DNA from: Thermobaculum terrenum ATCC BAA-798
GTDB taxonomy: Bacteria; Chloroflexota; Chloroflexia; Thermobaculales; Thermobaculaceae
Reading direction: 5' to 3'
Length of the DNA: 64,000 bases
Assembly (NCBI RefSeq): GCF_000025005.1
Contig: NC_013525.1
Coordinates: 879,501-943,500 of the forward strand
Of the stretch, positions 36,291 to 41,571 are shown one piece after another. The stretch's first letter is position 1; the number at the start of each line of letters is the position of its first letter. Below the pieces are notes generated by a model. That model was not told the origin of the DNA. It saw only the letters and a program-made list of their open reading frames with translations, and did no database searches. The position numbers were made by a program, and so were the translations under genes.

Positions 36291-36636
36291 TTAACCGCCT
36301 CCTAGAATTTGAATAATGCTCCAACAAGAAATAACATAATCGTTTGTATTTTGTTTCCTATTTGACACAATAATCCCCTACGTTTGCAAATGGTTGATAA
36401 CTGATCTCTTAATATATTTACGTTTTTTAAATTCTTCAGTTTTCTCACAGTTACTATTTTTGATCTCAGCCACAGTTCCCCTCATATGGCAAGATTTATG
36501 CTTGCTGCTTGACTGGGGAAACGATGGCTGCTGAGCAACAATTATATCGGAAAGCCTTTCTAAATTTTAGGATATTTATATAATCAGCGCTAGTTATGCT
36601 GGGTGTTCTGTAGTGGAGGATAAGAGGAGATCCATT
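36291..36636. other. Divergent intergenic region, GH130 / formate dehydrogenase
   Basis: About 345 bases without a gene, rich in A/T runs. It must hold the promoters of both flanking genes. A TTGACA at about 36363 has no good -10 partner at 16-18 bases, and no sigma-54 site with correct spacing is present. No riboswitch motif was recognised. Confidence 0.5.
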
Positions 36637-39600
36637 ATGGACTTTCTACAGAAGATATCTGAGAGGGTAGGTATTTCTCCTAATGCTGTAAGTAACCCAA
36701 GTAGGCGCTTATATCCAAGAATCAGAGACGCGCAAGTTACAGTGAGTGTTTGTCCCTATTGTGCCGTGGGTTGTTCACAGCTCGTTTACCATAAAGACGG
36801 TAAAGTAATTGATATAGAGGGCAACTATGCAAGCCCCATTAATGGTGGGACCCTGTGCCCTAAAGGAGCAGCCACTTCTGGGCTTATCAATAGCCCTATG
36901 AGGATTAGAAATGTCAAGTACAGAGCTCCTTTTTCTGACAAGTGGGAGGAGAAATCCCTCGACTGGGCGCTGGATAGGATAGCCCAGCTAGTGAAAGAGA
37001 CTAGGGACCGTACTTTTGAAGAGTATGACCCCTCTGGTAGGAGAGTAATGCGTACCCTGGGTATAGGACATCTTGGAGGGGCTACGCTTGACAATGAAGA
37101 GAATTATCTTATCAAAAAGCTGTTCACAGCTGGTCTGGGTATTGTAGCGGTAGAGAATCAAGCACGTATATGACACTCTAGTACGGTGCCCGGTCTGGGC
37201 GCTCGACTAGGTAGAGGCGGTGCGACTACCTTTCAGCAGAGCTTGGCGGACTCTGACTGCATAGTCATTATGGGGTCCAACATGGCCGAGAATCACCCAG
37301 TAGGCTTCAGATTTGTCATGATGGCCAAAGAAAAGGGTGCAAAGCTCATACATATAGACCCTAGATTTACTCGAACCTCTGCCCTGTGTGATATTCATGT
37401 GCCTCTTCGAGCCGGAAGCGATATAGCATTCCTCGGAGGGCTTATCAACTACGTGCTGAATCATGATAGGTGGAATTCAGATGATTTCTTCCAGACCTAT
37501 GTGCGTCACTATACTAATGCCACGGCAATAATAGATGAGAACTTCAGAGATACAGAAGATCTGGGAGGGTTATTCTCTGGTTATGATCCTGATTCAAGAT
37601 CTTATGATACTTCTTCCTGGAAGTATAGTGGAGAAGGGTTACACTCCTCCCCTGTAGATCATGAGAGCCATACGGGCGAGGCACATGTAACTGGCTCAAA
37701 GGACACCGTTTCAGATAACTCTGAGTTTGACCTGACTATGCAGCACCCTCGGAGTGTGATGCAGATTCTGCGTAAGCATTTCGCGCGTTATACACCTGAT
37801 ATGGTTGCTGAGATATGTGGGATACCCAAGGAGTTGTTTATCAAAGTGGCTGAGACCATAATCGAGAACAGTGGTAGAGACAAGACCACCGCTTTCTGTT
37901 ATGCAGTGGCTTGGACTCAACATACTACTGGTTCTCAGATGATAGGCTGCTGCGCTATCTTGCAATTATTACTGGGGAACATTGGTAGACCTGGAGGAGG
38001 TATCTTAGCCCTAAGAGGGCATGCAACGATTCAGGGTTCTACCGACATTCCTACCCTCTACAACTTGTTGCCAGGGTACCTGCCGATGCCTTCTTCGGAA
38101 ACTGATGAGGATCAAACTTTATCTGGGTATATAGCCCACTATCAGACTCAGACCGGTTGGTGGTATAACCTTCCAAAGTACATTATCAGCCTGCTGAAAG
38201 CCTATTACGGTGATAATGCCACTGCTCAGAACGATTATGCTTATGACCTTCTGCCTCAGATAGGTGGGGATTACTCCTTTGAGGCAATGATTCCTCTCAT
38301 GCGTGATGGTGTAATGAGGGGGCTATTCTGCTTTGGTCAGAACCCTGCCGTTGGGGGGCAGAATGCTCGCCTTGCACGTAGAGCTCTGGCTTCTCTTGAT
38401 TGGCTAGTGGTCAGGGATGTTCACGAGATAGAGACGGCATCTTTCTGGTATGCCTCACCTGAGGTTAAGAGAGGTGAGATCAGACCCGAAGAGATCCCAA
38501 CAGAAGTATTTCTATTGCCTGCCGCTTTACCGCCTGAGAAAGATGGGTCGTTTACTAATACCCAACGTTTGGTGCAGTGGCACGATAAGGCTGTAGATCC
38601 TCCGGATGATGCAAGATCGGAGACTTGGTTCCTCTATCATCTAGGCAGGAGACTAAAGGAGCTCTATGCAGGTGATGATTCTCTAAAGGGAAGGCAAATC
38701 TTGGCTCTTACATGGAATTATAGTACCGAGGGACATTTGCAGGAGCCAAAGGCTGAGGATATCTTGTACGAGATCAACGGCTATCGAGTCGAAGATAGAA
38801 AACTTCTTGAGAGCTTCGAGGATATAAAGGATGATGGTTCTACTGCGTGTGGTTGCTGGATATACTGCGGGATAACTCCCGATTATGGTGTAAACAGGGC
38901 TAGAAATCGTGATGCTGATGATAAGGCTTCACTCGGTTGGGGATTTTCATGGCCTGCCAATAGACGTATTCTCTATAATCGCGCTTCTGCTGATCCCCAG
39001 GGCAAGCCTTGGAGCGAGAGAAAGAAATGGGTATGGTGGGATGAATCACAGAAGAAGTGGGTTGGCTATGATATCCCCGATTTCCCCGTGAACAAGGATC
39101 CGTCTTACACCCCTCCAAAGGATGCCAAGGGCGTTGATGCTCACTCGGGGGATTCTCCCTTCATAATGATGTCTGATGGCAAGGGCTGGTTGTTCACACC
39201 AAAAGGAATGAAGGATGGTCCTTTGCCCACTCACTATGAGCCAAAAGAGTCCCCCTATCCTAACTTGTTGTATCCTGATCACCCGGTCAATCCTTGTGCT
39301 ATTCTCTTCGAAAGGCCAGATAATCCTTATCATGCTATAGAGGATCCCGCATTCCCACATATATTGACGACCTATAGGCTAACCGAGCATCATACAGCTG
39401 GGGGTATGACCAGGTGGGTGCCTTGGTTGGCGGAGCTGCAACCTGAAGGATTTGTGGAAATTAGCCCAGAGTTGGCACGAGAGATAGGTGTAGTTACAGG
39501 AGACTGGGTTGTGTTATCTACCGCCAGGGGAGAGATAGAATCCAGGGTCCTGGTTACGGCTAGGTTGCAGCCTATAGTTAGGGACGGTAGAAGAATACAT

Positions 39601-39756
39601 CAAATAGGTATGCCATGGCACTTCGGATACGGTGGGCTTGCGAGAGGGGCATCTGCTAACGATCTTAGTGCACTTATCGAGGATCCTAACTCGCGTATCC
39701 ATGAGGCAAAGAGCTTTACCTGTAATATTCGCAAGGGCAGATTAGACAGGAGATAG
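36637..39756 (+). CDS. Formate dehydrogenase catalytic subunit, selenocysteine-containing
   Basis: One gene read through an in-frame TGA at 37171-37173: 1039 residues with Sec at 179. Flanking residues NQARI-Sec-HSSTV match the active site of FdnG/FdhH enzymes, and both sides stay in the same frame. Near the N-terminus CPYCAVGC and TLCPKG bind a 4Fe-4S cluster, followed by molybdopterin domains (MGSNMAENHPVGFRF, GNIGRPGGG, FGQNPAVGGQNARLARR) and the C-terminal cofactor domain. ATG at 36637 follows AAGAGGAGA; a GTG eight codons earlier is inferior. There is no Tat signal, so the subunit probably faces the cytoplasm. It oxidises formate (or reduces CO2) and passes electrons to the next two subunits. 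The metal (Mo or W) cannot be told. Confidence 0.95.
37171..37210 (+). promoter_or_regulatory. UGA-Sec codon and bacterial SECIS hairpin
   Basis: Numbering UGA as 1-3, the loop GGUCU and following G occupy 22-27, the same offset as in E. coli fdhF. The apical stem is GUGCCC with GGGCGC (six pairs, including U17-G). The lower stem pairs CUAGU (8-12) with ACUAG (36-40), with two more C-G pairs between. This is the structure SelB binds to insert selenocysteine. Confidence 0.9.
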
Positions 39757-39761
39757 TTACG

Positions 39762-40574
39762 ATGTCTATTGGCAGCTTACAGTCGCCTGTTGGCTTTCTT
39801 ACAGATACCACTCTATGTATAGGCTGTAAGGCTTGTGAAGTTGCCTGCAAGCAATGGAACCAGCTACCAATGGATGGGCTCACCTGGACTGGGAATAGTT
39901 ATGATAATACTGGGGATTTGGGAGCCTATACGTGGAGACATGTTGAGTTTATAGAGAGGTTTCAGGAAGATATCCCCAGGGCTTCCGACATGCCTCCTTT
40001 TCAAAGCCACTGGCTTATGATGAGCGATGTTTGTAAGCACTGCGCTGTAGCAGGCTGCCTGGAGGCATGCCCCACAGGTGCTATTATCCGCACAGAGTTT
40101 GGTACCGTTTACATTCAGCCCGATATATGTAATGGATGCGGGTATTGCGTGCCTGCTTGCCCGTTCGGAGTGCCTGATATCGGCGCGTATGATGGCATAT
40201 CTCACAAATGCACTCTATGTTATGACAGACTCAAGGATGGCCTTGAGCCAGCTTGTGCTAAGGCTTGTCCTACCGATTCTATTCAGTTTGGCTCTTACAT
40301 TGAGCTGAAGGAAAGGGCCAGGAGACGGGTAGAGCATCTCCATTTGCTAGGTGTGACTAGCGCCTACATATACGGTGACGAGAACTTCGGTGGTACGAAC
40401 GGCATACAAGGACTATATGCCATGTTCATTCTTACCGATGAGCCTGAGGTGTATAACCTGCCAAGGAGACCGGAACTTCCTCAGAGAAAAGTTCTGAGGG
40501 GTTATTTGTCTGGTTTACTGTTCTCAATCTTGATGATGGTGCTGACTGCTTTGTCCTTGAAGAGACGAGATTGA
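39762..40574 (+). CDS. Formate dehydrogenase iron-sulfur subunit
   Basis: 270 residues. Four ferredoxin-type cysteine sets are visible: CIGCKACEVAC, CKHCAVAGCLEACP, CNGCGYCVPACPFG and CTLCYDRLKDGLEPACAKACP, enough for four 4Fe-4S clusters. A C-terminal hydrophobic helix (GLLFSILMMVLTALSL) anchors it to the membrane, as in FdnH. It starts five bases after the catalytic subunit and relays electrons from it to the membrane subunit. Confidence 0.94.
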   Translation: MSIGSLQSPVGFLTDTTLCIGCKACEVACKQWNQLPMDGLTWTGNSYDNTGDLGAYTWRHVEFIERFQEDIPRASDMPPFQSHWLMMSDVCKHCAVAGCLEACPTGAIIRTEFGTVYIQPDICNGCGYCVPACPFGVPDIGAYDGISHKCTLCYDRLKDGLEPACAKACPTDSIQFGSYIELKERARRRVEHLHLLGVTSAYIYGDENFGGTNGIQGLYAMFILTDEPEVYNLPRRPELPQRKVLRGYLSGLLFSILMMVLTALSLKRRD

Positions 40575-40587
40575 TGGAGCTTATACT

Positions 40588-41571
40588 ATGACTGAGATAC
40601 GAGCTAGAAGAGAGTCTGAAGATAAAAATCGAATCCAAGACATAACTTATTATGACAGACCTGTGATACACAAGCCCCATTGGGGATGGCTTATTATCAC
40701 ATACTTCTTCCTAGGTGGACTCTCTGGCGCTTGCTACCTGATTGGTTTGATTGCTGACCTTGTAAGGTTTGATGTCACCGGACGTCTTGGCAAGGTTTGC
40801 AGGTATATATCTTTATCCTCACTTATACCTTGTCCTGTGCTTCTCATACTTGATCTGAAGAGACCCGAGAGGTTTCATCATATGCTAAGGGTACTTAAGC
40901 TACGTTCTCCCATGTCGGTTGGCACGTGGGTACTATCTATATTTGGCCTGCTATCTGGTGCTGTGACTACAGCTGATCTGTTACGTAACATACTTCCTCA
41001 GGGTAAGGTCAATAAATTCCTTCATGCGTTAGATCCTATGCTATCTCTCGCCAAGGTAATGGCAGGTTTGCCTGCTATGTTTATGACGTTCTACACTGCA
41101 GTGCTTCTCGCTGCCACTGCTGTACCAGTGTGGACGAAGAGAGCTGCAACCTTGCCTTTGGTGTTCGTGTCTTCTTCTTTTTCCTCAGCTTTGGCAGTTA
41201 CTTCCCTGGTTACTTCCATTACAAAGATGTTTGCAGTTAATAAAGCGTTGGTATCGCTTCAGCTGTGGATGGGCCCTATTGACTTTATAGTCAAGTTATT
41301 CTTCGAGCGGACTCTTGCGCGTAGTCTTAGATTCTACCTAACGGATGGCAGGCTAAAGCTTGTAAACTTGCTAGGGGTTAGAATAATAGGTGAGATCTTC
41401 CCTCTCTCGCTGCTGTTGATAACACGTATCAGGAAAGCAAATAATCCTTGGCTAGGTAGAATATCATCCCTGATGATATTGCTAGGTGCGCTAGCATCTA
41501 GGTACGTCGTAGTTAAGGCTGGAGAGAAATCTGCTGTTGATCCTAAGGCCGTCTTCGAGATCACTAGGTGA
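40588..41571 (+). CDS. NrfD/PsrC-type membrane subunit of formate dehydrogenase
   Basis: 327 residues with eight or so hydrophobic helices. The start of the membrane domain (FLGGLSGACYLIGLIADL) and LDLKRPERFHHMLR are typical of NrfD/PsrC quinone-interacting subunits rather than of the cytochrome b FdnI. It therefore probably exchanges electrons with quinone without heme. Its stop overlaps the next gene's GTG by four bases. Confidence 0.88.
   Translation: MTEIRARRESEDKNRIQDITYYDRPVIHKPHWGWLIITYFFLGGLSGACYLIGLIADLVRFDVTGRLGKVCRYISLSSLIPCPVLLILDLKRPERFHHMLRVLKLRSPMSVGTWVLSIFGLLSGAVTTADLLRNILPQGKVNKFLHALDPMLSLAKVMAGLPAMFMTFYTAVLLAATAVPVWTKRAATLPLVFVSSSFSSALAVTSLVTSITKMFAVNKALVSLQLWMGPIDFIVKLFFERTLARSLRFYLTDGRLKLVNLLGVRIIGEIFPLSLLLITRIRKANNPWLGRISSLMILLGALASRYVVVKAGEKSAVDPKAVFEITR

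Follow-up and report, generated by a model that had tools for sequence, protein, structure and literature searches.

A predicted selenocysteine-containing formate dehydrogenase operon in the obligately aerobic thermophile Thermobaculum terrenum

The chromosome of Thermobaculum terrenum ATCC BAA-798 contains two adjacent open reading frames (ORFs) that resemble the two parts of a formate dehydrogenase (FDH) and are separated by a TGA codon. The question is whether this TGA ends a gene or encodes selenocysteine (Sec) within a single one. The window analyzed here is a stretch of 64,000 nt (NC_013525.1, positions 879,501 to 943,500), in which all features described below lie on the forward (+) strand. 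Read with translation table 11, the locus yields two ORFs (36613-37173 and 37186-39756), while translation of the frame 36637-39756 contains a single internal stop, the TGA at 37171-37173. The 860 codons that remain open in-frame past this TGA would do so by chance with a probability of about 2e-21 at the base composition of the window. We conclude from the evidence below that 36637-39756 is one predicted fdhA gene with UGA at the Sec position. At a probability of roughly 0.97, the locus represents a three-gene operon for a membrane-attached, Sec-containing FDH.

The read-through product is predicted to be a FDH catalytic subunit of the FdnG type, 1,039 aa long, with Sec as residue 179 (context NQARI-U-HSST) and no evident signal for twin-arginine translocation (Tat). 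Two family models cover nearly the whole read-through protein above their cut-offs, namely TIGR01553 (formate-DH-alph; 1007.6 bits, cut-off 814.2) and the NCBIfam FDH model NF041513 (1544.9 bits, cut-off 1400), from which it shows no notable difference. The three expected domains for [4Fe-4S] and molybdopterin binding are matched as well (PF04879, PF00384, and PF01568), the first being the N-terminal [4Fe-4S] binding domain Molybdop_Fe4S4 (residues 33-85, 36733-36891, 55.6 bits). The best solved relative is the tungsten-containing FDH of Desulfovibrio gigas (PDB 1h0h, 743 bits). Homology runs unbroken over the TGA to this enzyme and, over the full length, to E. coli FdnG of the FDH-N alpha family (PDB 1kqf), and the residue aligned with the TGA is shown as X (Sec) in both. 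In FdnG, too, the active-site Sec is followed by His. The initial annotation had interpreted the two ORFs as one gene in which the frame is kept past the TGA and the TGA at 37171 falls at the active-site Sec position. This interpretation agrees with the end-to-end match to one family, with the absence of any other stop before the end of the frame, and with the aligned Sec residues.

The family assignment also bears on the substrate. The superfamily of molybdopterin oxidoreductases is large, and the NrfD-type anchor encoded downstream is also used by polysulphide and nitrite enzymes, so that a related oxidoreductase acting on a substrate other than formate might be considered. We regard this as very unlikely: two FDH models score over their cut-offs whereas NapA, NasC, DmsA, and the rest stay far below theirs, the best solved relatives are all FDHs, and Sec followed by His (U-H) is the FDH motif (PMC13188914).

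A Sec codon presupposes a decoding system, and the initial annotation had implied SelA, SelB, SelC, and SelD elsewhere in the genome. A search of the genome found all four. A profile search identified SelA at C1:868172-869533 (505.6 bits). SelB is found near C1:1502-1504 kb (345.6 bits) and has the GTPase, the SelB beta-barrel, and two winged-helix domains (SelB-wing_2 and wing_3), while SelD (C1:499779-500726, 365.7 bits) has an in-frame TGA at its own catalytic Sec site (CAG-U-AAK). The tRNA-Sec with anticodon TCA is located at C1:1788871 (71.2 bits), the only other tRNA match above the cut-off being a tRNA-Ser. The predicted Sec-decoding set (selA, selB, selD, and tRNA-Sec) is complete in the same genome, including selB and tRNA-Sec, whose absence had initially been named as evidence to the contrary. 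In addition, the genome encodes one copy of the FDH accessory protein FdhD (248.8 bits). An even less probable explanation is that UGA is read by general suppression or under a reassigned code (e.g., as Trp) and not by SelB-dependent Sec insertion. The frame is indeed open under any code with UGA as a sense codon, but TGA is an ordinary stop in this genome (the SelD gene ends in TGA), the in-frame TGAs found sit at the Sec positions of two FDHs and SelD, homologues swap the Sec site to Cys and never to Trp, and both tRNA-Sec and SelB are encoded.

The TGA is shared with relatives. We fetched 80 related loci, 78 of which cover the Sec site; the codon is TGA in 75 and TGC in three, and the loci with TGA span several phyla. 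This recurrence shows that the TGA is not a sequencing error; a sense codon in close relatives combined with such an error, which the initial annotation had named as refuting evidence, did not turn up. The sequence 3' of the TGA is conserved as protein, with up to 70% identity. Among 101 genomes sampled across the class, 32 have a copy above the NF041513 cut-off, and an internal TGA is present in the full-length copies listed above it. Some relatives seemed to contain extra internal stops, but in every copy that was re-read the Sec-site TGA is the sole stop in the gene body, and the two additional TGAs seen sit at the last residues and are terminal stops. Some members of the class have FDH homologues with Cys (TGC/TGT) that lack a Sec insertion sequence (SECIS; loci L145, L146, L147, and L150). 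Three of the four genomes with such homologues (G049, G033, and G057) encode SelA, and none was found in the fourth (G085).

The initial annotation had interpreted the structure after the TGA as a SECIS. A hairpin (GUGCCC-GGUCU-GGGCGC, 37186-37202, loop 37192-37196) begins 12 nt past the TGA. Bacterial SECIS elements are constrained to a loop of 3-9 nt with G in the first two loop positions, a stem of 4-16 bp, a spacing of 16-37 nt, and a minimum free energy (MFE) of at most -7.5 (PMC13188914). The hairpin has a loop of 5 nt starting with GG, a stem of 6 bp, a spacing of 18 nt from the UGA to the loop, and a MFE of -12.7 kcal/mol. To look for compensatory pairing, relatives were clustered at 75% identity, which gave 35 diverged representatives. 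All of them (35/35) form the four core pairs, 140/140 cells in total. Columns 18 and 30 are the wobble positions of a Val and a Gly codon, where base changes hardly affect the protein; they pair as GC (17), CG (9), UA (5), or GU (4) without a single break. None of 500 shuffles reached the covariation score, and no shifted register came near it. In 29 of 31 representatives, the loop Gly is encoded by GGU, which makes up 92 of the 664 Gly codons in the remainder of these genes, and where Ser replaces this Gly, its codon is AGU. The Cys homologues lack both the GGUCU loop and the pairing. The covariation proves the predicted hairpin to be a real bacterial SECIS under selection at the RNA level, as initially proposed, and the roughly 80 TGA-bearing relatives show cleanly that synonymous sites are under selection for the SECIS. 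The conserved TGA and this covariation rule out that a nonsense mutation or an error in sequencing produced the TGA, be it in a pseudogene or in a Cys gene with a single incorrect base. It is true that a plain ORF caller splits the gene and that some homologues have TGC or TGT at the Sec site, but the same TGA recurs across several phyla, the protein is conserved 3' of it, the covarying SECIS occurs only together with the TGA, and the genome has the full Sec machinery.

Like the E. coli fdhF SECIS (Rfam SECIS_3), the hairpin has a GGUCU apical loop, in a similar register after the UGA. The U17 that is bulged in the fdhF element is part of a possible U-G pair in Thermobaculum. The MFE fold also predicts an extended stem around the apical hairpin (37178-37210). 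Only about half of the relatives retain the two pairs examined beneath the hairpin, and therefore we do not claim a long lower stem.

Several points weigh against our interpretation. The Rfam SECIS_3 match reaches only 23.6 bits (E 0.016), compared with a gathering score of 63, and the folding energy is unremarkable (z of -0.75 over 52 nt and -1.97 over 26 nt). Because the folding energy of a single sequence is uninformative, covariation was used as the evidence for the SECIS. The possible U-G pair at U17 may mean that the fine structure of the element differs from that of fdhF. Moreover, we only infer the topology of the enzyme, its coupling to quinone, and the choice between molybdenum and tungsten.

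The codon immediately 5' of the Sec codon is conserved in the family as well. In T. terrenum it is the Ile codon ATA (37168-37170). AUA is a rare Ile codon that is read by a special lysidine tRNA. Among the 33 representatives with Ile at this -1 position, 28 use ATA, versus 30 of the 451 Ile codons at other positions of these genes, and of the 15 Ile columns with enough data only the -1 column is mostly ATA. The codon is kept even in loci with a G+C content of about 70%, where ATA is otherwise hardly used. We also scanned 201 Chloroflexota genomes, some of them shared with the first set, with a pattern that allowed all three Ile codons, and found ATA at 54 of 63 sites. The rare ATA thus precedes the Sec TGA in about 85% of Sec-FDH genes, in several phyla. 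T. terrenum itself commonly uses ATA, and therefore the window alone would not reveal the preference. The Cys homologues provide no direct test, because none of those read has Ile at -1. A general rule of an A before the Sec UGA was rejected, as 0 of 30 SelD genes have an A-ending codon at -1; the effect would therefore be specific to FDH or to AUA. It is possible, though we lean slightly against it, that the -1 codon is part of the recoding signal in Sec-FDH genes and that selection maintains AUA there. We hold back because shared ancestry inflates the counts. AUA would perhaps slow the ribosome or put the release factor at a disadvantage, giving SelB and the hairpin time to engage. We found no paper on this preference in a literature search; it can be tested in a reporter.

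The fdhA gene is preceded by a Shine-Dalgarno-like sequence, AAGAGGAG (36622-36629), which is located 7 nt 5' of the ATG and presumably serves this start; an alternative start is the GTG at 36613. Six bases after the fdhA stop codon begins a fdhB-like gene (39762-40574) for a 4Fe-4S ferredoxin subunit whose C-terminal segment is hydrophobic (Fer4_11, 80.5 bits; TIGR01582 FDH-beta, 188.6 bits, below its cut-off of 334.7). It is followed by a gene for a NrfD-type membrane anchor, the putative quinone-reducing subunit (40588-41571; PF03916, 79.8 bits). The same fdh, 4Fe-4S, and nrfD order is found in Thermomicrobium roseum (TRD_RS09530-09540), whose FdhA is 55.5% identical to that of Thermobaculum and whose fdh likewise has ATA before the TGA and the same GGTCT loop. 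Downstream of nrfD, T. roseum has fdhE whereas Thermobaculum has a different gene. The membrane subunit also differs from that of the E. coli FdnG system, since the partner of FdnG is FdnI, a cytochrome b. The D. gigas enzyme is soluble and periplasmic, whereas in Thermobaculum a membrane anchor gene follows.

Based on established biochemistry, SelA and selenophosphate from SelD would convert Ser-tRNA-Sec into Sec-tRNA-Sec. SelB would bind the latter together with the GGUCU hairpin and bring Sec to a ribosome paused at the UGA. The 1,039-residue subunit would hold a Mo or W bis-pyranopterin cofactor, with Sec as metal ligand, and a [4Fe-4S] cluster, and would oxidize formate to CO2. The ferredoxin-like subunit would relay the electrons to the NrfD anchor, where they would reduce quinone and probably feed aerobic respiration. 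T. terrenum YNP1 is an obligate aerobe in the Chloroflexota (PMC3035366).

Among bacterial selenoproteins, FdhA is the commonest and most widely distributed (PMC1794560; PMC13188914). An early survey found it in 67 of 75 Sec-using bacteria (PMC1794560), and Chloroflexi have already been listed with the Sec-decoding trait (PMC5322559). Given how common FdhA is, and because curated models recognize the protein, the find is ordinary. The initial annotation, whose Sec-FDH interpretation as a whole is upheld by the full-length profiles, the aligned Sec, the SECIS, and the decoding machinery, had also expected standard gene callers to report the locus as two truncated genes. This is overstated and only partly right: a plain ORF caller splits the gene, but in RefSeq the close homologue from T. 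roseum, which shares the ATA-TGA and the loop, is annotated as a single fdh coding sequence. In the genome paper of T. terrenum (PMC3035366) we found no mention of selenium or formate, and a literature search returned no paper on this Thermobaculum gene. What the locus adds is a well-supported predicted selenoprotein operon in an obligately aerobic Chloroflexota thermophile.

A second FDH copy is encoded on the minus strand of the same genome (C1:667945-671169; L144:940-4296). It also has TGA at the Sec position, is 54-58% identical to the window copy in two alignments, and is adjoined by its own 4Fe-4S subunit gene. The second copy starts with a Tat-type signal, SRRDFLRLSGGVAAGTALGG, which the window copy lacks, as it does in comparison with E. 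coli FdnG. Because of this missing signal, the enzyme of the window probably faces the cytoplasm, complementing the Tat-type Sec paralogue. By extension, T. terrenum would have at least three predicted selenoproteins. SelD is a predicted selenoprotein in most sampled genomes of the class, as it is here (L014:1501-2448), and a predicted hairpin of the same general kind follows the TGA of SelD.
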